NCBI RefSeq assembly: GCF_000826655.1 | Contig: NZ_JXJO01000019.1 | Coordinates: forward strand, 1-64,000 | Origin: Psychroserpens damuponensis | GTDB lineage: Bacteria > Bacteroidota > Bacteroidia > Flavobacteriales > Flavobacteriaceae | DNA: 64,000 nt | Reading direction: 5' to 3' | In this document: positions 7,607 to 62,918 of the stretch, in pieces | Numbering within the stretch: position 1 is the stretch's first letter | How the letters are laid out: every line of letters starts with the position of its first letter | Made by a program: the position numbers and the translations under genes | The notes under the pieces: model-generated | Databases searched by the model: none | Seen by the model: only the letters and a program-made list of their open reading frames with translations | Told to the model about the DNA's origin: nothing

Positions 7607-8980
7607 ATTCGCGAATATATTACCCAACAAATCATCATTAGTGATTTCGCCTGTAATCTCACCAAAATGGTATAAAGCTTGACGAATATCAATAGCCAAT
7701 AAATCTCCAGATAAATCTGATTCTAAACCGTACTTTACTTTTTGGATTTCCTCAAACGCTTTTAATAAAGCATCATAATGACGAGAATTAGTCACAATAG
7801 TTTCATTATTACGTAAAGCACCTGTATTAATAAGCTCTAATAATGATTGTGTTAATTGTTCTACTCCAAAACCAGTTTTAGCAGAGAGTAATTTAATTTC
7901 AGGAATAAGGTTTTGCATTTCTGAAATTTGAATATCGTCAATTTGGTCTATTTTATTAGACACTACAAGTAAAGGTTTTTGGGGATATTTATTCTTTATT
8001 TTTTCTAGCTCAATTTTAAATGCCGTACCTTTAGACTCGAACTCAGTACTATCAAATAAGAAGATAACCACTTGAGCTTGATCTATTTTTTCGAATGTTT
8101 TTTTAATTCCAATAGTTTCTACTACATCTTCGGTATCTCGTATTCCTGCAGTATCAATAAATCTAAACCCAATACCACCTATAGATATTTCATCTTCAAT
8201 AGTATCTCTTGTTGTTCCTGCTATTTCAGAAACTATAGCGCGTTCTTCATTTAAAAGTGCGTTGAGTAATGTAGACTTACCAACATTGGGTTCTCCAACA
8301 ATGGCTACAGGAATTCCGTTTTTTATAACATTGCCTACTGCAAAAGAATCTATTAATCGTTTGAGTACAAAGGTAATTCTTTCAACGAGTGCTTTAAATT
8401 GTGAACGATCGGCAAATTCTACGTCTTCTTCAGCAAAATCGAGTTCTAATTCTATTAGAGAGGCAAAATTTAAAAGCTCTTCTCTGAGTTTAGATATTTC
8501 CGAAGAAAAACCACCTCGCATTTGCTGCATTGCTACTTGATGAGAGGCTTCGTTATCACTCGCAATTAAATCTGCTACAGCTTCTGCTTGTGATAAATCT
8601 AATTTTCCGTTTAAAAATGCTCTTAATGTAAATTCTCCTGCGTTTGCCATTCGGCACCCTTTTCGAAGAAACAATTGAATAATTTCTTGTTGAATATATA
8701 AACTTCCGTGACAAGAAATCTCTACAACATGCTCTCCTGTGTACGAATTAGGATTCTTAAACACAGATACTAAAACCTCATCAATAACACGAGTATCATC
8801 TACAATATGTCCTAAATGAATGGTATGTGTCGGTTGCTTTTGTAATGATTTATTTGCTACTACAGAGGCAAAATGTGCGTCAACAATTGTAATAGCATCA
8901 TCACCAGAAAGTCTAATTACAGCAATTGCTCCACTACCAGATGCTGTTGCCAATGCTATAATTGTATCTTGTTGAATCAT
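7589..8980 (-). CDS. mnmE: tRNA uridine-5-carboxymethylaminomethyl(34) synthesis GTPase MnmE
   Basis: 463 residues, the usual length. With MnmG it modifies the wobble uridine of certain tRNAs in the cytoplasm. The N-terminal folate-binding domain starts IIALATASGSGAIAVIRLSG. The G domain is inserted in a helical domain: P-loop GEPNVGKS at 229-236, IAGTTRD as G2, DTAG at 276-279, and NKID near 341. The C-terminus ends in the invariant FCIGK. The start ATG at 8980 has a TACTTTTG promoter element just upstream at 8994-9001. Its 3' end is the probable insertion site of the neighbouring island, but the reading frame is intact. Confidence 0.97.
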   Translation of the reverse strand: MIQQDTIIALATASGSGAIAVIRLSGDDAITIVDAHFASVVANKSLQKQPTHTIHLGHIVDDTRVIDEVLVSVFKNPNSYTGEHVVEISCHGSLYIQQEIIQLFLRKGCRMANAGEFTLRAFLNGKLDLSQAEAVADLIASDNEASHQVAMQQMRGGFSSEISKLREELLNFASLIELELDFAEEDVEFADRSQFKALVERITFVLKRLIDSFAVGNVIKNGIPVAIVGEPNVGKSTLLNALLNEERAIVSEIAGTTRDTIEDEISIGGIGFRFIDTAGIRDTEDVVETIGIKKTFEKIDQAQVVIFLFDSTEFESKGTAFKIELEKIKNKYPQKPLLVVSNKIDQIDDIQISEMQNLIPEIKLLSAKTGFGVEQLTQSLLELINTGALRNNETIVTNSRHYDALLKAFEEIQKVKYGLESDLSGDLLAIDIRQALYHFGEITGEITNDDLLGNIFANFCIGK

Positions 8981-8993
8981 TATATATTTTTTA

Positions 8994-9001
8994 CAAAAGT
9001 A
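8994..9001 (-). promoter_or_regulatory. Promoter -7 element of mnmE
   Basis: On the minus strand 9001-8994 reads TACTTTTG, a full match to TAnnTTTG, 14 bases before the mnmE ATG. No clear -33 TTG was seen at the usual distance. Confidence 0.5.
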
Positions 9002-9033
9002 TTGCTATTTTAGAATTAATTATGAAATTAGGC

Positions 9034-9065
9034 TTGATTTTCTCTCAACTAACTTATTATATTTG
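9034..9065 (+). promoter_or_regulatory. Promoter of the TlpA-like lipoprotein gene
   Basis: TTG at 9034-9036 and TATATTTG at 9058-9065 are 21 bases apart and match the Bacteroidota consensus. The implied leader is about 100 bases and contains ACGTGTTG (9093-9100) and its inverted copy CAACACGT (9136-9143), which could form a hairpin or a protein site. Confidence 0.6.
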
Positions 9066-9173
9066 TAATGTAAATTTATAATTATATGACAAACGTGTTG
9101 AGAATGTTATCTCCAAATAAAATAGCATGATCAAACAACACGTAACGGTTTAAAAACAAATAGATATAGACAC

Positions 9174-10325
9174 ATGAAAAAATTAGTTACATTTTTAGCA
9201 ATTTGCTTATTAATTATGGGTTGTAAAACTGAAGATAAGAAGGCTCCTCTAGAAGGGTATCTTATTGAAGGCGAAGCGCCTGGGCTTTATAACGGGATTA
9301 GAATTCATTTACAATCTTTAGATGAACGCAATAGAAAAATTAATAGAGATACAGCCATTGTCATGAACGAAAAATTTGTTTTTGAAGGTAAAGTTGATAA
9401 GCAAGAAATTTGGTATTTAACAGTAAACAGTGTTAATGGCAGCTCTCCTTTTATAATTGATAACGACTATTATGCCATAACTGTAGATAAAGATAATATT
9501 GATAATACTGTAGTTAAAGGACCTCTGGCTAATGCTGCTTTAAAGGCTTATTTTAAAGATAGTAAAGAATTAGCTAATAGACGTACTAAATTGACTGGTC
9601 AATTGAGATCATCTAGTGATATGTCTACTCGTGAAAACATTAATACTCAAATGGTTCAGCTCAATAAAGATGAATCTAGTATTCCATTTATGCATATTGA
9701 AAAAAATAAAGATAATGTAGCCTCTTTAATTTTTATTAATAACGAATTGAATGCTAAAAATGCCGATGTAGATAAGCTAGCTAAAGCTTTAAATAATGTG
9801 AACAGTGAATTAAAAAACACTAATCTTGGTAAAGAAACAACGTTAAGAATTACTCAAACTCAAAAAATTAGAGCAGCAGAAGGTGCAACACAAATTGGTA
9901 GTATCGCACCTAATTTTACAGCACCTACACCAAACGGTAGTACATTATCGCTAAAAGAAACTCTAGGTAAGGTTACTATTATTGATTTTTGGGCAGCTTG
10001 GTGTGGCCCTTGTAGAAGAGAAAATCCTAATGTGGTTAAAGTGTACGAAAAATACCATAGTAAAGGCTTAGAAATCATTGGAGTTTCTTTAGATGGTAGT
10101 GGTAGACAAAAAGACCCAAAGGATGCTTGGGTGAAAGCAATAGCGCAAGACAAACTAACGTGGCATCACGTATCAAACCTTAATTATTTTAATGATCCGG
10201 TGGCAAGAACCTATAATATTAAATCAATTCCGGCAACATTTATTCTAGATGAAACAGGAAAAATTGTAGCTAAAAATTTAAGAGGAGCTGCACTTGAAGC
10301 GAAGATTTCAGAATTATTAAATTAA
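9174..10325 (+). CDS. TlpA-family thiol-disulfide lipoprotein with DUF4369-like N-terminus
   Basis: 383 residues. The N-terminus is a lipoprotein signal with lipobox ending at C17 (LLIMGC). Residues about 25-125 resemble DUF4369, a beta domain common before thioredoxin folds in Bacteroidota; a helical linker runs to about 235. The C-terminal domain is AhpC/TSA-Redoxin/TlpA-like with the redox pair C277-G-P-C280 (AAWCGPC) and a cis-proline segment (KSIPATF). It should act in the periplasm, attached to the membrane, in disulfide reduction or exchange. The gene stands alone with its own promoter and terminator. The physiological partner is unknown. Confidence 0.88.
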   Translation: MKKLVTFLAICLLIMGCKTEDKKAPLEGYLIEGEAPGLYNGIRIHLQSLDERNRKINRDTAIVMNEKFVFEGKVDKQEIWYLTVNSVNGSSPFIIDNDYYAITVDKDNIDNTVVKGPLANAALKAYFKDSKELANRRTKLTGQLRSSSDMSTRENINTQMVQLNKDESSIPFMHIEKNKDNVASLIFINNELNAKNADVDKLAKALNNVNSELKNTNLGKETTLRITQTQKIRAAEGATQIGSIAPNFTAPTPNGSTLSLKETLGKVTIIDFWAAWCGPCRRENPNVVKVYEKYHSKGLEIIGVSLDGSGRQKDPKDAWVKAIAQDKLTWHHVSNLNYFNDPVARTYNIKSIPATFILDETGKIVAKNLRGAALEAKISELLN

Positions 10326-10347
10326 AAAATAAGTACTTCGGAAATGA

Positions 10348-10376
10348 GCCTTTACAATTATAGTAAAGGCTTTTTT
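10348..10376 (+). terminator. Intrinsic terminator after the TlpA-like gene
   Basis: GCCTTTAC (10348-10355) and GTAAAGGC (10363-10370) form a perfect 8-base stem with a 7-base loop, followed by six T. It lies between convergent genes. A copy of the dispersed word CTTCGGAA (10336-10343) is directly in front. Confidence 0.85.
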
Positions 10377-10380
10377 CATT

Positions 10381-11016
10381 TTAAATCTTGCCTAACTTGT
10401 GCATTATAAATAAAACTACAATAGGAATTGCTAATAAACCTACCATTAAAAGATCGGTTTCAAATAAGGAAGGTTTCAAGATTAACGTGATGATGTAGCC
10501 ACCAACTGCTCCACCAAAGTGGGCATCATGACCTATATTACCAATTCTCTTTTTCATCCCATAAATAGAATATAACAAATATCCAATTCCAAAAACAAAC
10601 CCAGGAATGAAGAAATTAATTTTCATCATCGGGTTCATGAGTATTGCCGAATATAAAACTCCCATAACGGCTCCACTTGCGCCTACTGCACTATATTGAT
10701 ATTCATTTTGATGAAAATAATAAGACATCAAACTACCTAGAGTTAAACTACCTATATAAACAATTAAAAAATTAAGCTGGCCTAGATCATAAATTACCCA
10801 ATCTGCAAAGAAAAAGAGTGTAATCATATTAAAAATTAGATGTTGCATATCTGCATGCAAAAACCCAGAGCTAAACATTCTAAACTGTTCGCCTCTCTTT
10901 ATACTTCCAACATTAAACTTATAGCGTTCAAAAAAACCATAATCATTAAAACCTTTATAGGAAATCAACGCATTTGCTGCAATGATGATAATGGTAAATA
11001 AACTCAAACTACCCAT
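10381..11016 (-). CDS. Rhomboid-family intramembrane serine protease
   Basis: 211 residues with about six membrane segments. The catalytic serine is S114 in GASG (112-115) and the histidine is H166 in AHFGG. The conserved HxxxxHxxxN of the second helix region is H54, H59 and N63. It should cleave membrane proteins within the bilayer; the substrate is unknown. Length matches minimal bacterial rhomboids. It is transcribed away from the neighbouring acyltransferase gene from a compact divergent promoter region. Confidence 0.93.
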   Translation of the reverse strand: MGSLSLFTIIIIAANALISYKGFNDYGFFERYKFNVGSIKRGEQFRMFSSGFLHADMQHLIFNMITLFFFADWVIYDLGQLNFLIVYIGSLTLGSLMSYYFHQNEYQYSAVGASGAVMGVLYSAILMNPMMKINFFIPGFVFGIGYLLYSIYGMKKRIGNIGHDAHFGGAVGGYIITLILKPSLFETDLLMVGLLAIPIVVLFIMHKLGKI

Positions 11017-11039
11017 AGACTAGAAACTTTTATTATACA

Positions 11040-11061
11040 TATATTTGCTGTTGCAAATCTA
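11040..11061. promoter_or_regulatory. Overlapping divergent promoters for rhomboid and acyltransferase genes
   Basis: TATATTTG at 11040-11047 points right toward the acyltransferase. TAGATTTG, read on the minus strand from 11061 to 11054, points left toward the rhomboid gene. Between them TTTGC-TGTT-GCAAA (11044-11057) is an inverted repeat. The two -7 elements face each other, so the start sites would lie within the partner element and the two promoters should compete. Confidence 0.5.
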
Positions 11062-11068
11062 ATCAATA

Positions 11069-16811: not shown

Positions 16812-17555
16812 GTGCCTAAACCGAAAAAAATTCTTAAAATTATAGGAGGAGTTATCATCTTCTTCACGTTGCCTACGCTACTTTTCTTTGCATTTATGTA
16901 TTTTAAATACAATGAAGATTTACCAACAGGAGAACAAGGTCCTGCTGCAGACCAACTGGCTACAAATATGTTGAACGCTCTTAATCATGAAGCTTACCAA
17001 GCTACAGATTACATAGAGTTTACTTTCAAAAAACGTCACCATTATAAATGGAGTAAAGCTAACAACACTTGTGAGGTTTATTGGAAAAATATTAAAGTAG
17101 AATTAGATTTGGCACATAACGACAAGTCTAGTGTTTACATTTCCGAAGAAAAATATATAGGAGATGATGCTCAAGAATACATTCAAAGCGCAGTTGATTA
17201 TTTCAACAATGATACTTTTTGGCTCGTGGCTCCTTACAAAGTTTTTGATGATGGTGTAGAACGCAGACTGGTAAAAACAGAAGCCAATAAAGACGCGCTT
17301 TTAATCACATATACCAATGGTGGCTCAACGCCTGGAGATTCTTATTTATGGCATTTGGATGACAACGGCAAACCTAAAAGCTACCAAATGTGGGTTGATA
17401 TTTTACCTATTGATGGTTTGGAAGCGTCATGGAGCGATTGGGAAACGACAGATACTGGAGCCGAATTACCAACTTTTCATAAGTTTTTGGCTTTTGGGTT
17501 AGAGATTGAAGGTTTAGAAACGAGTAAGCAGTCTTCAGTTGACGGTTTTCAGTGA
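16812..17555 (+). CDS. Hypothetical membrane-anchored protein
   Basis: 247 residues from a GTG start; the promoter element 15 bases upstream supports it. Residues about 10-32 are one strong transmembrane helix, then an extracytoplasmic domain rich in aromatic and acidic residues, with TFKKRHHYKW near 68-77 and a repeated tryptophan pattern (SWSDWETT) near 205. No known family was recognised. The last residues (KQSSVDGFQ) are encoded by a CAGT-rich stretch resembling a repeat, so the true conserved end may be a little earlier. It could be a surface or periplasmic protein of unknown role. Confidence 0.75.
   Translation: MPKPKKILKIIGGVIIFFTLPTLLFFAFMYFKYNEDLPTGEQGPAADQLATNMLNALNHEAYQATDYIEFTFKKRHHYKWSKANNTCEVYWKNIKVELDLAHNDKSSVYISEEKYIGDDAQEYIQSAVDYFNNDTFWLVAPYKVFDDGVERRLVKTEANKDALLITYTNGGSTPGDSYLWHLDDNGKPKSYQMWVDILPIDGLEASWSDWETTDTGAELPTFHKFLAFGLEIEGLETSKQSSVDGFQ
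17526..17553 (+). repeat. CAGT-rich degenerate repeat overlapping a gene end
   Basis: AAGCAGTCTTCAGTTGACGG then TTTTCAGTG. CAGT recurs, and TTTTCAGTG is the inverse of CACTGAAAA at 18096-18104. The stretch encodes the last residues of the preceding protein. Confidence 0.35.
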
Positions 17556-31983: not shown

Positions 31984-32002
31984 ATAACTCAATTATATAT
32001 AT

Positions 32003-32377
32003 ATGAAAAAAAACTTTACAGATTTAGCATTACTCATCCTTAGATTAGGTTTTGGCGGTTTTATGTTAACGCATGGTATTCCAAAAATTAGTAAATTATC
32101 AAATGCTGCCGAATTTCCTGATCCATTAGGCATTGGCGGATTACCTTCATTAATTTTATGCCTCATTGGTGAAGTACTTGCTCCTATACTAATTATTGTA
32201 GGTTTTAAAACCAAATGGGCTGCAATTCCTGCTGCCGTAACTATGCTTGTCGCTGCTTTTGTAATACATGCTAAAGATGATTTAGCAACCAAAGAACACG
32301 CTTTGTTATTTTGCTTAGCCTTTGTTGTTATCTTTTTAGCAGGACCAGGAAAACTATCAATTGACAGAATAAAATAA
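32003..32377 (+). CDS. DoxX-family membrane protein
   Basis: 124 residues with four hydrophobic segments. LILRLGFGGFMLTHGIPKI at the start and FLIGEVLAPILIIVGF-like centre (CLIGEVLAPILIIVGF) are typical of DoxX. The family is found in membrane redox systems, but its role in Bacteroidota is unclear. It closely follows the methyltransferase gene and is followed by a copy of the dispersed word (32388-32395). Confidence 0.88.
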   Translation: MKKNFTDLALLILRLGFGGFMLTHGIPKISKLSNAAEFPDPLGIGGLPSLILCLIGEVLAPILIIVGFKTKWAAIPAAVTMLVAAFVIHAKDDLATKEHALLFCLAFVVIFLAGPGKLSIDRIK

Positions 32378-32383
32378 TTAGTC

Positions 32384-32405
32384 TTTTCTTCGGAAATGTA
32401 ACTCA
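32384..32405 (+). repeat. 22-base repeat containing the dispersed word, copy 1
   Basis: Starts TTTTCTTCGGAAATGTAAC and is identical over 22 bases to 35232-35253. It lies directly after the DoxX-like gene. Confidence 0.85.
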
Positions 32406-32490
32406 CCAAAAATTGTGACTTAAATATTGTATTTTAGCACGCTGTTTGCTCACATGTAAACGGCATCTATATCTATCTAAATTATATGAA

Positions 32491-35162: not shown

Positions 35163-35253
35163 AAATTTCCGAAGACCTATAAAAAAGCTAGTTAGATAGT
35201 ACGCTAACTAGCTTTTTTGGTTTTAAGTCATTTTTCTTCGGAAATGTAACTCA
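35163..35253. repeat. Inverted pair of the dispersed word around a terminator
   Basis: TTCCGAAG (35167-35174) lies before and CTTCGGAA (35236-35243) after the terminator at 35181-35218. The right arm is part of the 22-base exact repeat (35232-35253) shared with 32384-32405. Confidence 0.75.
35181..35218 (+). terminator. Strong intrinsic terminator after the secreted-protein pair
   Basis: AAAAAAGCTAGTTAG (35181-35195) and CTAACTAGCTTTTTT (35204-35218) form a perfect 15-base arm pair with an 8-base loop, active in either direction. Confidence 0.93.
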
Positions 35254-38821: not shown

Positions 38822-38896
38822 AGTTTTCTTCGGAAATGTGATTTTATAACACTATTTATTTAAATCGTAATTAGTAATAATGCATTAGGTCAAAAC

Positions 38897-39688: not shown

Positions 39689-40669
39689 CTGAAAACAGCA
39701 ATCGTTATACTCAACTGGAACGGAAAAGAATTACTAGAAAAATTCTTACCATCTGTCACGCAATATTCTGAAGGCGCAGAGATTTATGTCGCAGATAATG
39801 CATCTACTGATGATTCTATCGATTTTGTAGTGAGCACATTTCCGCAGGTAAAGATCATAAAAAATGAAATAAATGGTGGTTATGCTAAAGGATATAATGA
39901 AGCACTAAAACAAGTAAATGCAGACGTTTTTTGTTTATTAAATAGTGATGTAGAAGTCACACCAAACTGGCTCACTCCTATTATTAATGAATTTGAAACG
40001 AACGCTAATACTAACATTATTCAACCAAAAATTTTAGACTATAAAAACAAAGCGTATTTTGAATATGCTGGAGCAGCTGGTGGTTTTATAGACACATACG
40101 GTTACGCCTATTGTAGAGGTCGTATTTTTGATACTATTGAAAAAGATGAAGGCCAATACAATGACACAACATCGATATTTTGGGCTTCAGGTGCTTGTTT
40201 GTTTATTAAAAAATCAGTTTTTAATACACTCAACGGTTTTGATGAAAGCTATTTTGCGCATTTTGAAGAAATAGATTTATGTTGGCGAGCATATAATGCT
40301 GGTTTTAACACAACATATGTTGGTGCTTCAACCGTATATCATGTTGGAGGCGCAACTTTAAATGCTATCAACCCCAAAAAAACATATCTTAATTTTAGAA
40401 ACAGTTTATTTACACTTACCAAAAATTGTGAACGCCCTCTTTTTGGCATTATATTTATTAGATTGACACTTGATGGCCTTGCAGGTTTGAAATTTTTATT
40501 CAGTTTAAAAACTGCTCATTTTATTGCTATTTTAAAGGCCCATTTTAGCTTTTATGCTAACTTAACAAGGCTTTTAAAACAACGTAAAACCCTTCCGAAG
40601 AAAAAAAAGAACTACAAAATCACCTCAATCGTCTGGTCCTACTTCATTAAAAAACGTCGTACATACTAA
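39689..40669 (+). CDS. Family 2 glycosyltransferase, apparently starting at CTG
   Basis: 326 residues if translation starts at CTG 39689. The frame is open from a TAA at 39674 with no ATG, GTG or TTG until GTG 39830, yet the bases between encode the essential start of a GT-A fold: KTAIVILNWNGKELL and DNASTDDS. Starting at 39830 would delete these. The nucleotide-binding strand is NSDVEV (DxD-like) near 90 and the catalytic GFDESYFAHFEEIDLC block lies near 185-200. The C-terminal part is hydrophobic. It should add a sugar to a lipid- or polymer-linked acceptor. The start needs protein-level proof. Confidence 0.8.
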   Translation: MKTAIVILNWNGKELLEKFLPSVTQYSEGAEIYVADNASTDDSIDFVVSTFPQVKIIKNEINGGYAKGYNEALKQVNADVFCLLNSDVEVTPNWLTPIINEFETNANTNIIQPKILDYKNKAYFEYAGAAGGFIDTYGYAYCRGRIFDTIEKDEGQYNDTTSIFWASGACLFIKKSVFNTLNGFDESYFAHFEEIDLCWRAYNAGFNTTYVGASTVYHVGGATLNAINPKKTYLNFRNSLFTLTKNCERPLFGIIFIRLTLDGLAGLKFLFSLKTAHFIAILKAHFSFYANLTRLLKQRKTLPKKKKNYKITSIVWSYFIKKRRTY

Positions 40670-45379: not shown

Positions 45380-47707
45380 CTACCCAAGCACATCCAACTT
45401 CGCAAATCGTAACAACAATTTCTTAACTCCTCCAATTTCAAAATTAATTTCAGCCTTAGTGTCTGGACCTTTACCTTCAATTTTTAAAACTTCTCCTTTT
45501 CCGAAGCGACCATGCTCAACAAAATTACCAACGACCAAATTACCATCAAAAAGATTAGCTTTTTCTGTTGCATTTGATTTGGTGACGCGTTTCAAATTTT
45601 TAGGTGCTACAAATTTTGGAGGTTTTTTAGCATCAGACTTACGTCTTATAATAGGTTTTTTAAATCGAATTTGATCTGGCTCTACATCACCAAAAATATC
45701 TGCATTTAACATTGGGTTTTGTCGTGGATCATTCACAGGTGTAATAATTTCTACGAATTTATCATCAATCTCCTGTATAAAACGACTAGGTTCGGCATCA
45801 ATTAATTTTCCCCAACGATAGCGCGACAAAGTGTACGTTAAATATGCCTGTTTCTCAGCTCTAGTTAACGCCACGTAAAATAAACGTCGCTCCTCCTCTA
45901 ATTCACTACGTGTATTCATACTCATGGCACTTGGGAACAAATCTTCTTCCATACCAACAATAAACACATACGGAAATTCTAACCCTTTTGCTAGGTGAAT
46001 CGTCATCATAGCCACATGATTAGGGTCTCCTTTATCTCCATCTAAATCTGTTGCTAGAGCTACATCTTCTAAAAATTCTGCAAGAGAATCTCCTGCATCT
46101 GCAATTTCTATTTGACCTTCAACAAAATCTTTAATACCATTTAAAAGTTCTTCTACGTTTTCTAATCGTACTTGACCTTCTGGTGTACCATCTTTATTAA
46201 CTTCTCTAATTAATCCGGTAGTTTTAGTCACATGTGCTGTTAACTCAAATGCGTTGGCAGTTTGGTTCATCACTTGAAAACTTTCAATAAGTGTGACAAA
46301 ATTTTTCAGCTTCCCTTTGGTCCCTTTATTAATATTGATATCAATTTTATCAATATGTTGAAGGACTTCAAAAATCGATTTCCCGAAACCATTTGCAGCA
46401 ACAACCAAACGATCAATAGTGGTTTGTCCTATACCACGAGCAGGATAATTAATAACTCGTTTCAAGGCTTCTTCATCGGCTGGATTTAAAATTAAGCGCA
46501 GATATGCCGTAACATCTTTAATCTCTTTACGCTGGTAAAAGGATAATCCGCCATAAATACGATATGGAATATCGCGTTTTCTAAGAGCATCTTCAATAGC
46601 TCTAGATTGCGCATTGGTTCTATATAAAACAGCAAAATCACTATTTGGTAATTGGTGATTCATTTTGGTTTCAAAAATAGTACTAGCTACATAACGACCT
46701 TCATCACCATCGGTCAAAGATCGGTTAACTTTTACCTTTTCGCCTTCTACATTTGCAGTCCAAACTACTTTATCTAATTTAGTTTTGTTATGCTCAATTA
46801 CAGAATTTGCTGCGCCAACAATGTTTTTTGTAGAACGGTAATTTTGTTCTAATCTAAATACTTTAACATCGTCGTAATCTTTCTGAAAATTTAAAATGTT
46901 ATTGATATTCGCACCTCGAAAGGCATAAATACTTTGCGCATCATCTCCTACCACACAAATATTTTGAAAACGATCAGACAAAGCTCTCACAATTAAATAC
47001 TGAGAATGGTTGGTATCCTGATACTCATCTACCAAAATATACCTAAACTTGTTTTGGTATTGTGCCAATACATTTGGAAAGCGCGTTAACAACTCATTAG
47101 TTCGCAAGAGTAAATCATCAAAATCCATAGCACCAGCTTTAAAGCAACGATCTACATAATTTTTGTAGATTTCTCCCATTCTTGGTCGTCTTGCTGCAGT
47201 ATCTGCTTCTATTAATTCAGAATTTTTTAAATACGCCTTAACCGTTATTAAATTATTTTTATAAGATGATATACGACTATAAACCTGCTTCGTTTTATAA
47301 ACATCCTTATCTAAGCCCATTTCTTTTATAATTGAGCCTAACAATTTTTGAGAATCTTGCGTATCGTAGATTGTAAAATTGCTCGGAAACCCTAAATGAT
47401 GACCTTCAAATCGTAATATTTTAGCAAAAACCGAGTGAAAAGTTCCCATCCAAAGGTTTTTGGCTTCATCACCAACAATATCGGCAATTCTGCCCTTCAT
47501 TTCTTTAGCAGCTTTATTCGTAAAGGTCAACGCCAAAATATTAAACGAATCTACTCCCTTACTCATTAAATAGGCAATACGATATGTTAACACTCTCGTT
47601 TTACCAGATCCTGCACCTGCAATAATAATCATTGGTCCATCTACTTGGACGGTTGGCTCATATTGCGCTTCGTTTAATTGACTTAAATACTTCTCCAAAT
47701 TTTTCAT
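45380..47707 (-). CDS. UvrD/PcrA-type ATP-dependent DNA helicase
   Basis: 775 residues. Superfamily 1A motifs are in order: Q-motif LNEAQYEPT, Walker A GAGSGKT at 31-37, LVDEYQDTN as Walker B, GDDAQSIY (III), LEQNYRS (IV), TIHLAKGLEF (V) and VALTRA (VI). The C-terminal small barrel (about 715-765, GRFGKGEVLKIEG) is the one recalled in the 175-residue protein at 18105. It unwinds DNA in repair and restart and removes RecA-like filaments. The gap to 45300 has no gene. Confidence 0.95.
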   Translation of the reverse strand: MKNLEKYLSQLNEAQYEPTVQVDGPMIIIAGAGSGKTRVLTYRIAYLMSKGVDSFNILALTFTNKAAKEMKGRIADIVGDEAKNLWMGTFHSVFAKILRFEGHHLGFPSNFTIYDTQDSQKLLGSIIKEMGLDKDVYKTKQVYSRISSYKNNLITVKAYLKNSELIEADTAARRPRMGEIYKNYVDRCFKAGAMDFDDLLLRTNELLTRFPNVLAQYQNKFRYILVDEYQDTNHSQYLIVRALSDRFQNICVVGDDAQSIYAFRGANINNILNFQKDYDDVKVFRLEQNYRSTKNIVGAANSVIEHNKTKLDKVVWTANVEGEKVKVNRSLTDGDEGRYVASTIFETKMNHQLPNSDFAVLYRTNAQSRAIEDALRKRDIPYRIYGGLSFYQRKEIKDVTAYLRLILNPADEEALKRVINYPARGIGQTTIDRLVVAANGFGKSIFEVLQHIDKIDININKGTKGKLKNFVTLIESFQVMNQTANAFELTAHVTKTTGLIREVNKDGTPEGQVRLENVEELLNGIKDFVEGQIEIADAGDSLAEFLEDVALATDLDGDKGDPNHVAMMTIHLAKGLEFPYVFIVGMEEDLFPSAMSMNTRSELEEERRLFYVALTRAEKQAYLTYTLSRYRWGKLIDAEPSRFIQEIDDKFVEIITPVNDPRQNPMLNADIFGDVEPDQIRFKKPIIRRKSDAKKPPKFVAPKNLKRVTKSNATEKANLFDGNLVVGNFVEHGRFGKGEVLKIEGKGPDTKAEINFEIGGVKKLLLRFAKLDVLG

Positions 47708-47842: not shown

Positions 47843-49120
47843 ATGCGATACCTCTTTATTTTAGCGTTTTTCTTCGGAAATTTTACAGCATTTGCACAAC
47901 CTGATCTTGAAAAGGATATTATTGATATCGAATCTAAAGTAATTGAATGGCGCAGACATTTTCATGAGCACCCAGAATTATCAAATCAAGAATTTAAAAC
48001 TGCCGAAAAAATTGAAGCGCATTTAAAGTCATTAGGTTTAGAAGTTAAAACTGGAGTTGCTATCACAGGAGTTGTTGGCATATTAAAAGGTGATCATCCA
48101 GGGCAAGTGGTAGCCTTAAGAGCAGATATTGATGCATTACCTGTAACAGAGCGCAACGACCTACCATTTAAAAGTACAGTAGAAACCGAATTTCTAGGTA
48201 CAAAAACAGGTGTTATGCATGCTTGTGGTCATGATACACATACTGCAATTTTAATGGGAGTTGCAGAAGTGTTATCAAAACATAAAGACAAAATAAAAGG
48301 CACAGTAAAATTTATTTTTCAACCTGCAGAAGAAGGTCCGCCTCCTGGAGAAGAAGGTGGTGCAAAACTCATGATTAAAGAAGGCGTGTTAGAAAACCCA
48401 AAAGTAGATGTTATTTTTGGGTTACACATAAATGCAGGAACACCTGTTGGCATTTTAAAATATAAAAAAGGTGGCATTATGGCTTCTGTAGAACGCTTTG
48501 TTATTAATGTAAAAGGAAAACAAACCCATGGCTCTCAACCTTGGTCTGGTGTAGATCCTATTTTAATTTCGGCTAAAATTATTGACGGATTGCAAACTAT
48601 TATCAGTAGAGAAGCCAAATTAACAGATGAAGCGGCTGTAATTACTGTTGGAAAAATTACCGCAGGAACACGCTTTAATATCATCCCAGAAACAGCCGAA
48701 CTCATTGGCACTGTAAGAACATTAGATCCTGCAATGCGAGAAATGATAGAGCGACGAATGAAAGAAATGACAGAAACCATTGCCAAAGCTTATGGTGGCG
48801 AAGCTACAATTACCTTTAGAAATCAAACATCAATTACGTATAACGATCCAGATTTGGTAGATCAAATGCTACCAACATTACAAAATGTAGCTGGTACAGC
48901 CAATGTACAAATCGTGAAAGCAACAACAGGTGGTGAAGACTTTTCATATTTTCAAGAAATTGTTCCTGGTTTATATTTCTTTTTAGGAGGCATGACTCCA
49001 GGAGAGGAAAGTAAAGGCGCTTTTCCTCATCACACACCAGATTTTATGATAGATGAAAGCGGAATGCTACTAGGTGTAAAATCCCTTACGCAACTCACTT
49101 TAGACTATTTAAACCAGTAA
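47843..49120 (+). CDS. M20-family amidohydrolase/aminoacylase, secreted
   Basis: 425 residues. A signal peptide ends near 18-19 (TAFAQ). The metal site includes HACGHDTH at 126-133 and PAEEG near 165; HHTPDF near 390 gives the last ligand. Relatives remove acyl or amino acid groups (hippurate hydrolase, IAA-amino acid hydrolase type). Periplasmic. The signal peptide contains a copy of the dispersed word (47872-47879). Ends 4 bases before the next convergent gene. Confidence 0.9.
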   Translation: MRYLFILAFFFGNFTAFAQPDLEKDIIDIESKVIEWRRHFHEHPELSNQEFKTAEKIEAHLKSLGLEVKTGVAITGVVGILKGDHPGQVVALRADIDALPVTERNDLPFKSTVETEFLGTKTGVMHACGHDTHTAILMGVAEVLSKHKDKIKGTVKFIFQPAEEGPPPGEEGGAKLMIKEGVLENPKVDVIFGLHINAGTPVGILKYKKGGIMASVERFVINVKGKQTHGSQPWSGVDPILISAKIIDGLQTIISREAKLTDEAAVITVGKITAGTRFNIIPETAELIGTVRTLDPAMREMIERRMKEMTETIAKAYGGEATITFRNQTSITYNDPDLVDQMLPTLQNVAGTANVQIVKATTGGEDFSYFQEIVPGLYFFLGGMTPGEESKGAFPHHTPDFMIDESGMLLGVKSLTQLTLDYLNQ

Positions 49121-53788: not shown

Positions 53789-55782
53789 TTCTGTTCGTTT
53801 TTAAGTTGCTCAATTAATCGTTTGTATGCACTGTCATTCTCTAACTCATCGATCACCTGTTTTGCATATTTTGAAAATCGCCAGTTATGATGCTTTGTAG
53901 CCTTTAAAAGACTTTTTATAGATTTAGATTCAAATCCACCAATGAGTTTTAAATAATCAAATGCTCGCATTCGTAATTCAAAATGATGATTAGGAGACGT
54001 ATACCCAATTAACTCATTCAAAACATCTTGTTTTTTATTTGGCTGAAATTCAACCGTATTTAAATGCAGTACCAACCACAAACATCGCACATTATAATCG
54101 TTAAACCCTTTTATATCTTTAGTTTTCTGCAAGTATTTGATACGTTCCTCTGGGAAGTTAACCCATAAACTATACAATGCCGCTTCAATGGTAACATAAG
54201 ATTTATCATTTAATAGCGATTCGTAGTGAGGTTTTAGTTCTTTCGGAATTTCAGTAACATATTGAGCTATTGCCTGTCGCACTTCTAAACTATTATTAAA
54301 AGCTTCAGGTTCGATATGTTTTGACACCTGACTCACGACTTTTATTTTTGCCTTATCGGAAATATTAGACACCAAATAATCTTTGCATTTTTGGGTATAC
54401 TCATTACAATCAACAGCTAGATAGTCTCTCATAAAAGCAGATTTTTTAAGACTTTTTACCACGGCATCTTCCGGAAGTTTAACTTCTGTCAACCAATCAT
54501 CTACAAAGCCAGATAAATCTTGTTGGCTTGATGTTTCTACCTCAGAAATAAAATCTGTAGTTGTTACATTTCCGAAGCTATGCTTACCTAAATACGTTTT
54601 CACAGCAGTTGTAAATGCTGAGTCTCCAACCTGCTCTCGCAATACATGCAAAGCCCAAGCGCCTTTTTTATAAAAGGTTGTACTGCTCGATTTGGCATCT
54701 AAAAGTGAGGTGCTTTGTCCTGCTTTTTCTTGAGCAATTAATTCTTGAGCGTTTTCAAACAACTGCCAATAATAATGATCGTCTCCAAAAATATTGCGTT
54801 CTGCCAACAAAGCGTAATAAGTAGCAAAACCTTCTTGAAGCCAGTGATGCTCTCCAGAAGTTGCCGTTACCAAATCTCCAAACCATTGATGTGCCAACTC
54901 ATGCGCATTAACTGTAATGTAGTTTTTATCATTAAACCCAATAGAATCTACCATAAAACTGTCTGAGAAAATCGTGAGACTCGTATTTTCCATCCCAGAA
55001 TACAGAAAGTCTTTTACAGGTACTTGCTTATAATTTTGCCAAGGATATGCGACACCAATCTCTTCTTCTAAGAAATCAAACATTTGTTTTGAATAACGAT
55101 ATGTTGGCTCAACTTTAAGCGAATCGTTTGGGTAATAGTAATATTCTAGAGGGATTCCAGATTTTGAGGTTTCTGTTTTTTTATTGTAGTTACCTATGGC
55201 TAAAGCGACTAAGTAACTGGACATTGGCTTTTGCATCTCGTAATGCCATTTAGTATAGTCTTCTCCAACCTCTTTGTTTATGAGTTTTCCATTAGCTAAA
55301 ACCTCATAACCATTTTCATAAGTGATTGATAAATCAAATTCTATTTTATCGTTAACATCATCGATGCTTGGTAGCCAGTTGCTGGTGTATTTCCCTTGAC
55401 CTTGTGTCCAGATTTGATCGTCAATGAAGTACATTGCCTTTTTGGGATAGGAAAAATAAATTAATTTAAATTCATAAATAGAGTCTTTCACCATGTCATT
55501 GGTGAAATTAAATATTAAGCGATTAGCATCGTAAGTATGACGAGCTTTAAAATTGCTATTATGAATTTCATAATGATCAATTCTATTTCCCGCATCAATA
55601 AAGACAGAGTCTATTTCTTTTAAAATTTTAAATTTATATACTACACTCCCTTTAACCAAACCTAAAGAGTTGTCAAAACCAATATCAGCTTTAATACTTA
55701 TAAAATCTACATAATCCGATTGTTGAGCGGTTATAGTTCCGAAGAAAAAAAAGAAAAATATAATTTGCAAATATTGCTTCAT
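53785..55782 (-). CDS. M1-family zinc aminopeptidase, secreted
   Basis: 665 residues. A signal peptide ends near 19-20 (ITAQ). GMENT at 263-267 and HELAHQ at 294-299 (H294, E295, H298) with E317 (18 residues between) give a complete M1 zinc site. A HEAT-like C-terminal region (about 455-665) follows. It should remove N-terminal residues from peptides in the periplasm or surface. It is the functional counterpart to the degenerate M1-like protein at 24718. The patatin gene overlaps its stop by 4 bases. Confidence 0.93.
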   Translation of the reverse strand: MKQYLQIIFFFFFFGTITAQQSDYVDFISIKADIGFDNSLGLVKGSVVYKFKILKEIDSVFIDAGNRIDHYEIHNSNFKARHTYDANRLIFNFTNDMVKDSIYEFKLIYFSYPKKAMYFIDDQIWTQGQGKYTSNWLPSIDDVNDKIEFDLSITYENGYEVLANGKLINKEVGEDYTKWHYEMQKPMSSYLVALAIGNYNKKTETSKSGIPLEYYYYPNDSLKVEPTYRYSKQMFDFLEEEIGVAYPWQNYKQVPVKDFLYSGMENTSLTIFSDSFMVDSIGFNDKNYITVNAHELAHQWFGDLVTATSGEHHWLQEGFATYYALLAERNIFGDDHYYWQLFENAQELIAQEKAGQSTSLLDAKSSSTTFYKKGAWALHVLREQVGDSAFTTAVKTYLGKHSFGNVTTTDFISEVETSSQQDLSGFVDDWLTEVKLPEDAVVKSLKKSAFMRDYLAVDCNEYTQKCKDYLVSNISDKAKIKVVSQVSKHIEPEAFNNSLEVRQAIAQYVTEIPKELKPHYESLLNDKSYVTIEAALYSLWVNFPEERIKYLQKTKDIKGFNDYNVRCLWLVLHLNTVEFQPNKKQDVLNELIGYTSPNHHFELRMRAFDYLKLIGGFESKSIKSLLKATKHHNWRFSKYAKQVIDELENDSAYKRLIEQLKNEQK

Positions 55783-58118: not shown

Positions 58119-58133
58119 ACAACTATATTTTAA

Positions 58134-59226: not shown

Positions 59227-59814
59227 ATGAGCATGCTTCACCTTAAATTAGCAACCGATCCACGTTGGGCAAAACTCGCAGAAGACAATATTGAAGAAAT
59301 CTTAACAGATCATGCTTGGTGTGAACAAAAAGCATGTACAAATGCGATTACTATTATTACACATAACTCTGAGTATCCAGATCTGGTTACAGAATTATTA
59401 GAACTCGCTAAGGAAGAATTAGAACATTTTCAAATGGTACATGATATCATAAAAAAACGAGGCTACACCTTAGGCAGAGAACGAAAAGACAGCTACGTTA
59501 ATGAACTGTACAAGTTTATGAATAAAGGCGGAAGCAGACTACAAAGTATGGTTGATCGTTTATTATTTTCGGCTATGATAGAAGCACGTAGTTGCGAACG
59601 TTTTAAACTCTTATCACAACGTATTAAAGACGAAGAATTATCTAAATTTTATTATGACTTAATGGTTAGTGAAGCTGGACATTACACCACATTTATAACA
59701 TTTGCTCGAAAATACGGTAAAGACATTGATGTTGACAAACGCTGGAAAGAACTTGTTGAGTTTGAAGCAGAAGTTATTAAAAGCTACGGAAAGTCTGAAT
59801 CTATTCATGGTTAA
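59227..59814 (+). CDS. miaE: tRNA-(ms2io6A) hydroxylase-like protein
   Basis: 195 residues from ATG 59227; the frame is open upstream into the oxidase gene, but MSMLHLKLATDPRWA is the family start. Di-iron ligands appear as ExxH pairs: E64-x-x-H67 (EELEHFQ), E119 (MIEARSCERF) and E149-x-x-H152 (SEAGHY). MiaE hydroxylates the isopentenyl group of A37 in tRNA. The start places the gene as a close follower of the amine oxidase gene. Confidence 0.9.
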   Translation: MSMLHLKLATDPRWAKLAEDNIEEILTDHAWCEQKACTNAITIITHNSEYPDLVTELLELAKEELEHFQMVHDIIKKRGYTLGRERKDSYVNELYKFMNKGGSRLQSMVDRLLFSAMIEARSCERFKLLSQRIKDEELSKFYYDLMVSEAGHYTTFITFARKYGKDIDVDKRWKELVEFEAEVIKSYGKSESIHG

Positions 59815-59885
59815 GTAAATCCCTTTTTTAAGAAAATTTTATGCTTGGTTTTTCTTCGGAAAGTCTCACAGTTCAAAAAAAGCTT

Positions 59886-59893
59886 TAATTTTG
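59886..59893 (+). promoter_or_regulatory. TAATTTTG promoter element almost at a start codon
   Basis: TAATTTTG matches TAnnTTTG and ends only 4 bases before the ATG at 59898, so the transcript could be leaderless. There is no -33 TTG at the expected distance. A dispersed CTTCGGAA (59854-59861) lies upstream. Confidence 0.4.
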
Positions 59894-59897
59894 TAGC

Positions 59898-60269
59898 ATG
59901 AAAATTAAACTTACATCATTTCTTACATTACTCTTAGGATTCTGCTTTTTTGCAGCTTACCCAAGCGCTAACGATGTAAATTTAATTCCTAAAACTCATT
60001 TTGAAGTTTCACATGATGATGTAAACGACTCATCTTTAAAACCAGTTAGCTATCTTCATACCAATGATTCTCTAGACAGAATCTTTACTAACAACCAAAA
60101 CACATACACTCCAGTAGTTCTAAAAAAACTTACTGATGCTAACACAAAAGCAAACATAAACAAACACCAAACGGTAGTTGAACTCAATAAATCTCATCAA
60201 TACGAGACGCACCTCATACTGAGTTTTTTAACAACCGATATTATTTTCCCTTTTCACAACTTTTGGTAA
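59898..60269 (+). CDS. Hypothetical small secreted protein
   Basis: 123 residues. A signal peptide ends near 20-24 (GFCFFAAYPSA). The mature part is polar and low in order, rich in Asn, Thr, Lys, with an aromatic C-terminal end (IIFPFHNFW). No family recognised. Stands alone. The gap 60270-60369 has only a weak hairpin (TGTCAT-TTA-ATGACA, 60289-60303). Confidence 0.6.
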   Translation: MKIKLTSFLTLLLGFCFFAAYPSANDVNLIPKTHFEVSHDDVNDSSLKPVSYLHTNDSLDRIFTNNQNTYTPVVLKKLTDANTKANINKHQTVVELNKSHQYETHLILSFLTTDIIFPFHNFW

Positions 60270-60369
60270 TTCATTTTCATTTTTAAGCTGTCATTTAATG
60301 ACAACACTTTTTTAGCAATGTATCTACACAATGCTAATATCATAATACATTAACTTAAAAATTTTTAAA

Positions 60370-60846
60370 ATGAGTTTAGGAATAACTATTACATCAGCAG
60401 TTTTAGTACTGTTGGTGACTACACCTGTTGTACTTATACAACAACAACAAAAGAAAAAAGAACGTAAGCTGTTAAACGCCTTGAAAGCCTTAGCCAATCA
60501 ACATAAAAGTAAATTAGCAGAGTTTGAAGTGTTTAAAAATTTTGCTATTGGATTAGACGCAAACAATCATAATTTATTTTTTTATAAACAGAATTCTAAA
60601 AAAGAAATCTCTCAACGTATCGACCTTAACAATATTAAAAGCTGCGGAATTTTAAATTCTAAAAAAGCGAATCATACAGATAAGCACGACACCATTGTGA
60701 GATTACAATTAGTTTTAAACCCTAAAAGCAGTTCTAAACACGAACAAAACATTGAAATATTTAATCAAATAGATGATTTTCAACTAAATGGTGAATTAGA
60801 AGTGATACAAAAATGGGAACATATTATTCAAAATAATTTAAATTAA
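60370..60846 (+). CDS. Hypothetical membrane-anchored protein
   Basis: 158 residues: one N-terminal helix (about 5-25), a KKKERK stretch, then a domain with strands (FAIGLDANNHNLFFYKQN, RIDLNNIKSCGIL, IVRLQLVLNPKS), suggestive of a small PH-like fold. No family recognised. Followed by a good terminator. Confidence 0.65.
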   Translation: MSLGITITSAVLVLLVTTPVVLIQQQQKKKERKLLNALKALANQHKSKLAEFEVFKNFAIGLDANNHNLFFYKQNSKKEISQRIDLNNIKSCGILNSKKANHTDKHDTIVRLQLVLNPKSSSKHEQNIEIFNQIDDFQLNGELEVIQKWEHIIQNNLN

Positions 60847-60870
60847 GATTTTTAACTTAAAATTCCACTT

Positions 60871-60907
60871 TTAAGCCTTGATATACTATATTAAGGCTTA
60901 ACTTTTT
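60871..60907 (+). terminator. Intrinsic terminator before marC
   Basis: TTAAGCCTT (60871-60879) and AAGGCTTAA (60893-60901) form a 9-base stem with inner ATAT pairs possible; five T follow at 60903-60907. The marC ATG is 8 bases later. Confidence 0.8.
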
Positions 60908-60914
60908 GTGATTT

Positions 60915-61523
60915 ATGATAGAAATAGTAACCTCAATATTTTTTTTAATTGCCGTTATAGACCCATTAGGATCAGTACCTGTATACCTAGAAGCGACAAA
61001 ACAATTTGACAAAAAACATAAAATAAAAATAGCGGTACGCGCGTCAATAATTGCCTTTTTTATTTTATTATTTTTTATTGTTATCGGTCAATTGATTTTA
61101 GAAGGCATGGAAGTCTCCCTAGATGCGTTTCAAATTTCGGGAGGTGTTATTCTTTTTCTATTTGCATTAACTATGATTTTTGGAGATGGTAAACCCGAAA
61201 CAGAAAAACATTCTATTAAAGACTACAAACATGTAACTATATTTCCTGTAGCAATCCCATCTATCGCTTCACCTGGAGCGATTATGGCTGTGGTGCTCAT
61301 GACCGATAATCACCACTACACAATACAACAACAAATAATGACCACAGCTTTAGTTTTACTTGTCATTATTTTAACCTGCTTATTATTACTGGCTGCAAAC
61401 CTTGTACAAAAGAGAATTGGAGACTATGGGATTACTGTAATTAGCAAAATTATGGGATTAATTTTAGCGTCTTACGCGATACAAAGCATATTGAGTGGTG
61501 TCAAGGATTTTTTCTTTGTATAA
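60915..61523 (+). CDS. MarC-family inner-membrane protein
   Basis: 202 residues with six hydrophobic segments and the family motif FLIAVIDPLGSVPVY near 11-25, GGVILFLFALTM (about 75-87) and PSIASPGAIMAVVLM near 115-128. MarC proteins have no settled function. The gene starts right after a terminator and convergent with the TlpA-like lipoprotein gene 8 bases downstream. Confidence 0.9.
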   Translation: MIEIVTSIFFLIAVIDPLGSVPVYLEATKQFDKKHKIKIAVRASIIAFFILLFFIVIGQLILEGMEVSLDAFQISGGVILFLFALTMIFGDGKPETEKHSIKDYKHVTIFPVAIPSIASPGAIMAVVLMTDNHHYTIQQQIMTTALVLLVIILTCLLLLAANLVQKRIGDYGITVISKIMGLILASYAIQSILSGVKDFFFV

Positions 61524-61530
61524 ACACTCA

Positions 61531-62745
61531 CTACTCTGCTAACAACTCATCAACAAAGCTCTCAAATTCTGCTTTAAATTCTATATATTTTTCACCTGTT
61601 GCTGGCCCATTAAATCCGGTATGAATCTTTCTCACCTTACCTTTTTTATCTATATAGATTGAGGTTGGATACGACAATACATGATTTAACATTGGTAATT
61701 TTTCTTGAGCTTGAGCCTTATCTGAAGACCCATACTGAGCCAACAAGATTGGATATTGAATTCCCACGTCATCCTTTAAACGTTTTATACTCTTAAATGC
61801 TTTATCTTTAGACTTAGCATACTCAAAAGCCAATGCAACAAATTCTATATCCTTTTTGGCATTATTACTATAATACTCTGAATAGTATTTACTCTCATCC
61901 AAACAGTTAGGACACCATGATCCCATAATTTGCACGATAACAACCTTATCCCTAAAACGCTTATCAGATAACGACACCTGAGTACTATCAGTATCAGGAA
62001 AGGTAAACTCTAAGGCGTCATAGCCTTTTTTTAGAAATGTAAGATCATTAGCGCTTGGCAATTCATAAGTCTCATTACGCTTAGCAATAAAAGGTTCTTC
62101 CCAATGATTTCCTGAGTAGAATTTTCCGTTCATGGTACTGTCTTTTACTGTAGCCGTAAATAAAAATGCATGTGCACCATCAAAGGTTGATAGCTTCATA
62201 ATATCACCATCCATAACGCCTTCTAAATAACGATAATCTCCTGTTGTTGTTCTAAAAGTCCCTGTAACCTCAGTTCCATTTTGTTCAAAAACACCTTTTG
62301 CTATATATTTATCTTCTTCGGAATTTGGACTAAACACAGTCTCCCAATTACCTGTCACATTTTGACTAGGTGTTTCATTTTTAATGCTGAAACGATCCTT
62401 ATTTGATAATTCTGCCGAGAAAGACACCACGCGATCTAAACTTTCTTTTACAAAACTTCCTTTGAGATGCCCATCTTTTAAAACTGCTTTAATATAGCCT
62501 TCAAAAACTGGAGTTTTTATGACAATTGTATCGTGAGAATACGTTATATCTGTAACTAGAATCACTTCATCAGCATTAGAAATTTTTAGGGCATCTCGAG
62601 ATGTTACTTCAAAATTAAATGGTAACACTTCGGTATCAGTTAATTGCAATTCTGCTCTCCAAACTCCTTCTGGCAATGCATCTGAACGATTGAGATTACA
62701 ACCAAAAACAAGTATTAATATTGGTAAAAGAATTAGTTTTCGCAT
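61531..62745 (-). CDS. TlpA-like redox lipoprotein with an N-terminal beta domain
   Basis: 404 residues from ATG 62745; the frame opens at 62769 but the lipoprotein signal MRKLILLPILILVFGC (C16) and the position of the TATATTTG element fix the start. A beta-rich region (about 20-220, with repeats such as NGTEVTGTFRTTTGDYRY) precedes a thioredoxin-like domain with CxxC near 270-275 (GSWCPNC). It should act in periplasmic thiol exchange. A second copy of this architecture after the 9174 gene. Function inferred. Confidence 0.82.
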   Translation of the reverse strand: MRKLILLPILILVFGCNLNRSDALPEGVWRAELQLTDTEVLPFNFEVTSRDALKISNADEVILVTDITYSHDTIVIKTPVFEGYIKAVLKDGHLKGSFVKESLDRVVSFSAELSNKDRFSIKNETPSQNVTGNWETVFSPNSEEDKYIAKGVFEQNGTEVTGTFRTTTGDYRYLEGVMDGDIMKLSTFDGAHAFLFTATVKDSTMNGKFYSGNHWEEPFIAKRNETYELPSANDLTFLKKGYDALEFTFPDTDSTQVSLSDKRFRDKVVIVQIMGSWCPNCLDESKYYSEYYSNNAKKDIEFVALAFEYAKSKDKAFKSIKRLKDDVGIQYPILLAQYGSSDKAQAQEKLPMLNHVLSYPTSIYIDKKGKVRKIHTGFNGPATGEKYIEFKAEFESFVDELLAE

Positions 62746-62779
62746 CATGAGCTTTATTTTTAAAAACATTTCGTCTCCA

Positions 62780-62787
62780 CAAATATA
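62780..62787 (-). promoter_or_regulatory. Promoter -7 element of the TlpA-like gene
   Basis: On the minus strand 62787-62780 reads TATATTTG, a full TAnnTTTG match. With the start at 62745 the leader is about 30 bases; from 62769 the transcript would be nearly leaderless. Confidence 0.55.
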
Positions 62788-62918
62788 AACTTCTTACAAC
62801 TATTGTCTAGCAAAGTGTTTAATATCAATCTTTTTTTGGGTTTTTAAAATTTCCGAAGAAAATATTAAGATTAGGGCTATTTTTTAACAAAAAACTATCG
62901 CTAAACTATTAGTATTAT

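Follow-up and report, generated by a model that had tools for sequence, protein, structure and literature searches.

Why should one eight-base word recur some 30 times in a short stretch of a flavobacterial chromosome? The stretch is a 64-kb segment of Psychroserpens damuponensis DNA (RefSeq assembly GCF_000826655.1, contig NZ_JXJO01000019.1, positions 1 to 64,000; hereafter, the window), and the word is CTTCGGAA, which reads TTCCGAAG on the opposite strand. A preliminary description of the window counted at least 29 copies in both orientations, with about one expected by chance, and proposed either a DNA uptake word or a chromosome-organizing site. Here we report that CTTCGGAA is a DNA motif maintained genome-wide by a force acting on DNA and not on protein, and we argue from its sequence and distribution that it probably serves a group of Flavobacteriaceae as a DNA uptake (self-recognition) sequence.

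Abundance of the word in the window and the genome

The window contains 30 exact copies of CTTCGGAA (13 and 17 by orientation) compared with 1.24 expected, in agreement with the earlier count, and 100 dinucleotide shuffles of the window yielded a maximum of 5 copies. The first copy starts at position 8498, and the last ends at position 62858. Across the whole draft genome (3,945,764 bases in 106 contigs), the word occurs 1,520 times, 741 and 779 by strand, compared with 175 copies of the same letters read backwards. Because this reversed control has GC in place of the word's CG and is a rough yardstick only, we also counted the word against a third-order Markov model in a 454-kb sample composed of the window and stretches of three contigs. 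In this sample, CTTCGGAA is the highest-ranked over-represented 8-mer, with 196 copies compared with 9.7 expected, far from the near-Markov count that the preliminary description had named as grounds for abandoning the idea. Such a large genome-wide excess over composition is a feature of uptake sequences.

The next-ranked 8-mers in the sample are overlapping pieces of the same motif. Among one-letter variants, those at the third letter are the most raised (CTACGGAA, 41 observed and 5.4 expected; CTGCGGAA, 30 and 3.6; CTCCGGAA, 8 and 1.4), and others (CTTCGGCA, CTTCGGTA, and CTTCCGAA) are raised approximately three- to fourfold. The 14-mer TTTTCTTCGGAAAT occurs 158 times in the genome versus 2 times for its control, with 7 copies in the window. 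Within the same sample, GATCCTGC is also raised (41 versus 5.3), and several 12-mers recur, for example CACAGAATGTGG.

Motif architecture and upkeep at the DNA level

We built a motif profile from 68 intergenic and 353 coding copies in P. damuponensis and a congener assembled as a single 3.84-Mb contig (G006). The full motif spans approximately 30 bp and consists of a T-tract, the core, and A-rich arms. In the intergenic copies, a T-rich tract of about nine bases lies to the left of the fixed core; to the right, A occupies position +8 in 60 of 68 copies and T occupies position +9 in 52 of 68, and A-rich segments follow around +13 to +16 and +20 to +24. The coding copies have the same flank preferences in weaker form. 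The extended motif suggested earlier is therefore real, and its layout, a core with weaker AT-rich flanks, is one that uptake sequences share.

Codon use does not explain the word, as the preliminary description had maintained. With proteins and codon usage held constant in a synonymous-codon shuffle, the P. damuponensis coding sequences yielded 7.4 copies compared with 165 observed, and those of G006 yielded 8.9 compared with 182; the corresponding values in three other genomes were 4.8 and 51 (G322), 5.5 and 52 (G057), and 3.0 and 19 (G029). The 167 coding copies found in 474 kb of the genome occupy all three reading frames, encoding Ser-Glu (94), Phe-Gly (49), or Pro-Lys (19), again as first described. 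The frame that requires CGG or CGA Arg codons accounts for only 5 of the 167, so three of the six combinations of frame and orientation hold most coding copies. Relative to the gene, the two orientations occur 91 and 76 times. A flank comparison of 206 sites identified only 7 similar pairs, 6 of which are ≤2.5 kb apart; the copies are thus not remnants of one transposed repeat with shared flanks, the other outcome that had been named as fatal to the idea.

Distribution along the chromosome and around genes

In G006, the 2,174 copies of the word are divided 1085/1089 between the strands, and their spacing is near-exponential. We examined 19 stretches of 20 kb, spaced approximately 200 kb apart along this chromosome, and each contains 3 to 18 copies; the map of strand and position proposed earlier as a check is thus even. 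Using local GC skew to infer the leading strand, we assigned 98 copies in these stretches to the locally G-rich strand and 117 to its complement. This strand-neutral, even spread is typical of uptake sequences. The G006 stretches, all of which carry copies, give no sign of matS-like clustering at the terminus, nor does the 98:117 ratio indicate the replication-linked orientation of Chi or KOPS sites, and a Chi-like role had already been disfavored in the preliminary description.

Within P. damuponensis, 18.9% of copies lie wholly within the 8% of the genome that is non-coding. Word density is 1.47/kb between convergent genes, 1.14/kb between tandem genes, and 0.49/kb between divergent genes, which matches the earlier remark that intergenic copies sit mainly after genes.

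Of all word-free stretches in 474 kb, the longest extends over 38.1 kb (G000:C1:161746-199848; L018 and L019) and has a chance probability of about 1e-5. It has 30% GC and holds a large polysaccharide cluster; all 8 proteins scanned either are of a polysaccharide type or are compatible with such a cluster (glycosyl/sugar transferases, an acyltransferase, an aminotransferase, a Wzt-like exporter, and one transglutaminase-like protein). No copy lies in the initial 8.5 kb of the window, where an integrase element is located, compared with approximately 3.7 expected, a deficit that is weak alone. Based on their genes and GC content, both word-free regions look foreign. When the 38-kb cluster is excluded, GC quartiles show no consistent trend with word density. 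Uptake sequences tend to be scarce in recently acquired DNA, and here the evidence for that scarcity comes from the 38-kb cluster and the short integrase element.

Conservation among relatives

We compared orthologous regions of 20 to 24 kb in 21 genomes of the genus (all but G012 and G018). Between P. damuponensis and three close word-rich relatives, 17 of 23 aligned places retained the word, with alignments gapped at the word scored as not kept, whereas random 8-mers were kept at 19 to 25%. We also compared all pairs of genomes using 276 composition-matched control words; pairs were counted in both directions, so these counts are not independent. Among the eight word-richest genomes, the word was kept in 70/109 cases (controls, 69/601) for pairs with ≥78% identity and in 76/209 cases (controls, 164/2117) for more distant pairs; rich-to-poor pairs kept 24/53 and 66/475. 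Sites are therefore kept across related species, as uptake sequences are.

Individual sites differ in their histories. Of 14 relatives with a gap-free alignment at position 40593, 5 (G014, G016, G006, G008, and G020) also carry the word, and at 54570 the word is present in 0 of 14 such relatives. At 45499, 3 of 20 aligned relatives (G016, G006, and G021) share the word, and the remaining 17 differ only at word positions 0, 3, and 6, all of them third positions of codons. Because G014 and G003, which belong to the same subclade of the RecG tree, carry the common, non-word form, gain of the word followed by exchange between lineages is likelier at this site than simple descent.

Occurrence in the genus, family, and order

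Copy number ranges from 278 to 2,174 among 23 genomes of the genus. Even word-poor members have some excess (11 versus 2.6 and 5 versus 1.8 in the synonymous shuffle), as do 13 word-poor genomes when pooled (31 versus 4.1). In a sample of 299 genomes of the family, we counted by hand those with ≥400 copies and ≥2.5 times the control; 27 were word-rich by this threshold, in about 18 of 236 genera. In a sample of 246 genomes of the order, approximately 190 of them from other families, no other-family genome exceeded 564 copies, and none of those with ≥100 copies rose above approximately 3.5 times the control. A further 49 genomes, those of 50 out of 80 named loci less Psychroserpens luteus, had been picked by likeness to one protein of P. 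damuponensis; of these, Algibacter miyuki stands out (847 copies versus 256 for the control), two Lacinutrix-like genomes reach about twofold, and the others, Winogradskyella included, lie close to the control or under it.

CTTCGGAA exceeded its one-letter variants in 5 of 5 word-rich genomes tested, which represent four genera; no dialect split was seen across them, and the one-letter variants differ slightly between genera. The word is the top 8-mer in G322 and G057, whereas in 40 kb of G029 it ranks third. Neither five groups of named relatives (orthologous loci, which are not independent) nor 20 to 80 kb from each of five genomes belonging to another family yielded a word with a similar count. 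Apparent dialects in single loci were traced to a 7-bp tandem repeat at L066 and L106 and to an inverted-repeat element at L130. The 7-bp unit, CAGTCAT, is in tandem at L066:14778-14835 and L106:11285-11325 and is possibly phase-variable. In 11 Winogradskyella loci, AATATCCC is raised (36 versus 4.4 in 242 kb, with 20 distinct left flanks); because these loci are orthologous, it is no more than a lead for another word.

Uptake genes and the outer-membrane/DUF5689 pair

The P. damuponensis genome encodes ComEC and a CarboxypepD_reg outer-membrane protein with a DUF5689 lipoprotein adjacent to it. Riemerella species are described as naturally transformable in sections of PMC7965970, where R. columbina is said to favor its own DNA and its word is left open; A/T-rich words are among those listed in the k-mer table of that publication. 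According to passages of PMC8459023, R. anatipestifer depends for transformation on ComEC, DprA, ComF, and RecA, together with four unusual proteins. These four include an outer-membrane protein with a CarboxypepD_reg domain and a DUF5689 protein encoded next to it, both of which are essential, and homologues are reported there in Psychroserpens.

At the P. luteus locus, three neighboring proteins and the outer-membrane protein are 89 to 91% matches. The form of the pair in P. damuponensis was found in 3 of 23 genomes of the genus. Between L042:7631-11873 and L056:8489-12831, the flanking three genes are 87-90% identical, and the pair is 60 and 32% identical; two pair forms at one place look like allelic replacement of a surface locus. 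Beside the pair, a divergent gene encodes an endonuclease/exonuclease/phosphatase-family protein (PF19580, L042:6421-7491) that might act as a nuclease partner in DNA uptake; 79 of the 80 named loci contain a homologue. Matches listed for the AlphaFold model of the DUF5689 lipoprotein are adhesin, carbohydrate-binding, and ephrin-receptor domains over approximately 190 residues of the predicted structure, with no DNA-binding fold among them; we did not use this model as evidence.

We built a tree of the outer-membrane protein with 101 rows, in which 10 rows with ratios of 1.5-2.5 were left without a state; G246 lacked an outer-membrane match, and the second pieces of split genes (L235 and L265) were excluded. 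For 29 family genomes chosen by word status, the well-supported clade B holds 10 of 14 word-rich and 4 of 15 word-poor genomes, and clade A holds 0 of 14 and 7 of 15. We nevertheless rejected outer-membrane type as the determinant of the word: P. damuponensis is word-rich yet has form A, resemblance to its own protein had guided the choice of the named rows, and the split largely follows the species tree.

Copies and features in the window

The coordinates of all copies in the window are listed in Table 1. The coding status of the copy at 32384..32397 is unsure because of overlapping ORFs (31993-32409 on the minus strand and 32003-32377 on the plus strand). At 35167-35243, an opposed pair of words surrounds a terminator-like stem, with two genes flanking. 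The word-free element also encodes two HTH_17 proteins, a DUF3987/BT4734-like primase-like protein, and DUF6617.

Table 1. Copies of the word and the word-free element in the 64-kb window.
Feature	Position	Strand	Context
Word-free contrast element	1799..7372	-	Adjoins mnmE; tyrosine integrase 5857-6963
14-mer TTTTCTTCGGAAAT, core 8498-8505	8496..8509	-	Inside mnmE (7589-8980); first copy right of mobile element
Core CTTCGGAA	10336..10343	+	Intergenic, convergent genes either side
Core CTTCGGAA	12287..12294	-	Coding
Core CTTCGGAA	15252..15259	-	Coding
14-mer TTTTCTTCGGAAAT, core 17141-17148	17139..17152	-	Coding
Core CTTCGGAA	20406..20413	+	Within uvrA
Core CTTCGGAA	21117..21124	+	Within uvrA
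Core CTTCGGAA	21183..21190	-	Within uvrA; 66 bp from 21117 copy, opposite orientation
Core CTTCGGAA	22221..22228	-	Intergenic, uvrA end 19 bp before
Core CTTCGGAA	25509..25516	-	Coding
Core CTTCGGAA	27626..27633	-	Intergenic
Core CTTCGGAA	30810..30817	-	Coding
Core CTTCGGAA	31128..31135	+	Coding
14-mer TTTTCTTCGGAAAT, core 32388-32395	32384..32397	+	Coding status unsure
Core CTTCGGAA	33308..33315	-	Coding
Core CTTCGGAA	35167..35174	-	Intergenic, flanks terminator-like stem
14-mer TTTTCTTCGGAAAT, core 35236-35243	35232..35245	+	Intergenic, far side of same terminator-like stem
14-mer TTTTCTTCGGAAAT, core 38828-38835	38824..38837	+	Intergenic, gene end 6 bp before
Core CTTCGGAA	40593..40600	-	Coding
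Core CTTCGGAA	42507..42514	+	Coding
Core CTTCGGAA	45499..45506	-	Within pcrA/uvrD-like gene
14-mer TTTTCTTCGGAAAT, core 47872-47879	47868..47881	+	Coding
Core CTTCGGAA	50012..50019	+	Coding
Core CTTCGGAA	50190..50197	-	Coding
Core CTTCGGAA	54570..54577	-	Coding
Core CTTCGGAA	55737..55744	-	Coding
Core CTTCGGAA	56327..56334	+	Within recG; word shared by 10/20 aligned relatives
Core CTTCGGAA	59854..59861	+	Intergenic
Core CTTCGGAA	62316..62323	+	Coding
14-mer TTTTCTTCGGAAAT, core 62851-62858	62849..62862	-	Intergenic

Discussion

Of the two roles offered in the preliminary description, we favor that of an uptake word because of the even spread, the strand neutrality, the two foreign-looking word-free regions, the Haemophilus-like layout, and the patchy occurrence; chromosome-organizing sites linked to strand or terminus are disfavored by the same spread and neutrality. 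The function is read from sequence, and we consider it probable that CTTCGGAA, with its left T-tract and right A-rich arms, acts in uptake. A cell-surface or periplasmic DNA-binding protein would prefer duplex DNA bearing the word; such DNA, mostly derived from kin, would cross the outer membrane, perhaps via a Riemerella-type TonB-dependent-receptor-like protein and its DUF5689 lipoprotein, enter through ComEC, and be recombined by DprA and RecA. The word would then accumulate by molecular drive because incoming word-bearing alleles are favored.

Several observations weigh against this interpretation. Pairs among the 13 poorer genomes also keep the word (29/65 versus 157/1377 for controls; 32/227 and 493/7719, respectively, in more distant pairs), and since the word is above the controls between word-poor relatives, any loss of the system there would be slow or partial. 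The foreign origin of the word-free regions was read from genes and GC and not from comparison of relatives. No reader of the word was found, and the outer-membrane pair does not cleanly separate word-rich from word-poor genomes: the DUF5689 protein is present in 12 of 12 genomes first tested, whatever their word count, the pair occurs in word-poor genomes too, and word-rich members of one genus have two very different forms of the pair at the same place. A paired test on the species tree, which omitted the missing RecG of G102, G264 because its gene is in two pieces, and G018 because of a split over contigs, lent a link between type and word no independent support (3 supported pairs, median p of 1). 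The idea that the outer-membrane/DUF5689 pair itself reads the word is thus not supported. According to PMC7965970, F. johnsoniae showed no competence under the conditions used there, and among open-licence papers in PubMed Central, we found no measurement of uptake, binding, or competence for the genus.

Other explanations account for parts of the evidence. An abundant nucleoid or chromosome-organizing protein with a long sequence-specific footprint would also produce an even spread in both orientations with a site approximately every 2 kb, a long motif with AT-rich arms, and sites kept between species; however, a probably foreign 38-kb cluster without the word would be odd for housekeeping architecture, as would a nearly eightfold range of copy number in one genus, and we consider such a protein rather unlikely. 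No nucleoid protein that combines a fixed 8-bp core with approximately 1,500 sites is known to us, although no search aimed at one was made. The target of a genome-wide methyltransferase, either like HIP1 or as a methyl tag of the kind used in Campylobacter uptake, is quite improbable: HIP1 is likewise highly iterated and is linked to orphan methyltransferases in passages of PMC4390886, but CTTCGGAA is a contiguous, non-palindromic 8-bp word with long arms. We give very little weight to a Chi-like recombination hot spot or KOPS-like polar site, which could likewise be an over-represented octamer absent from foreign-looking DNA, as the word has no strand bias either in the 19 stretches or across all of G006.

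The word could also be a hairpin element, with CTTCGG supplying a UNCG tetraloop and its closing pair and the T-run and A-run forming the stem. The best-tolerated change in the core is indeed at the N of UNCG (CTACGGAA 98, CTGCGGAA 85, and CTCCGGAA 18, compared with 421 for the word), and a 4-bp stem, TTTC/GAAA, is possible in 101 of 421 copies. However, positions -3 and +8 are complementary in 219 of 421 copies compared with 225.4 expected, so there is no covariation; where CTTCGG lacks AA, 2-bp stems occur in 19 of 216 cases compared with 15.3 expected; AA follows 421 of 637 occurrences of CTTCGG; and the orientation of copies within genes is unlike that of an RNA signal. A hairpin is therefore hardly credible. 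Abundance alone would fit a dispersed repeat that has left remnants, or a side effect of codon and dipeptide use, an explanation that the dissimilar flanks and the synonymous shuffles reduce to a negligible probability.

An uptake sequence, the reading we prefer, can be compared with known systems. To our knowledge, only two bacterial families, both Proteobacteria, have established uptake words. The same two families are named in a passage of PMC1939737, which also gives the Haemophilus uptake consensus as 29 bp, with a layout comparable to that of the motif described here. Like the uptake signal sequence (USS) of Pasteurellaceae such as Haemophilus influenzae, the word has a short fixed core within a motif of about 30 bp, AT-rich arms, and a genome-wide excess; unlike the USS, whose core AAGTGCGGT is unrelated to CTTCGGAA, it has arms on both sides, belongs to another phylum, and has an uptake bias that we infer. 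The DNA uptake sequence (DUS) of Neisseriaceae is likewise a genome-wide self word with a patchy distribution within its family, but the word is unrelated, no dialect split was seen in the five word-rich genomes tested here, and no ComP-type reader is known for CTTCGGAA. The Riemerella machinery (PMC8459023) resembles the gene content of P. damuponensis in ComEC and in the CarboxypepD_reg outer-membrane protein with its adjacent DUF5689 lipoprotein, whereas Riemerella has no established uptake word. Cyanobacterial HIP1 is also an octamer highly iterated across the genome; it is a palindrome tied to methyltransferases, whereas CTTCGGAA is not its own reverse complement.

We found no earlier report of the word, or of any uptake word in Bacteroidota, among open-licence papers in PubMed Central, a search without subscription papers and preprints; excerpts of a 2025 review of natural transformation (PMC12236230) name the Neisseria word and contain no mention of Bacteroid-, Riemerella, or Flavobacter-. 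It is conceivable, though on balance doubtful, that the word marks a third independent origin of self-recognizing uptake, in Bacteroidota, with a surface complex of a TonB-dependent-receptor-like porin and DUF5689 protein as the reader instead of a type IV pilus, and that the genera sharing the word may form a family-wide community of DNA exchange. If CTTCGGAA is an uptake sequence, then biased uptake of self-DNA evolved again in Bacteroidota, quite possibly with different machinery, and DNA exchange would be suggested among flavobacteria not known as transformable. The graded copy number within Psychroserpens would then provide a natural series for studying how such a word is gained or fades.

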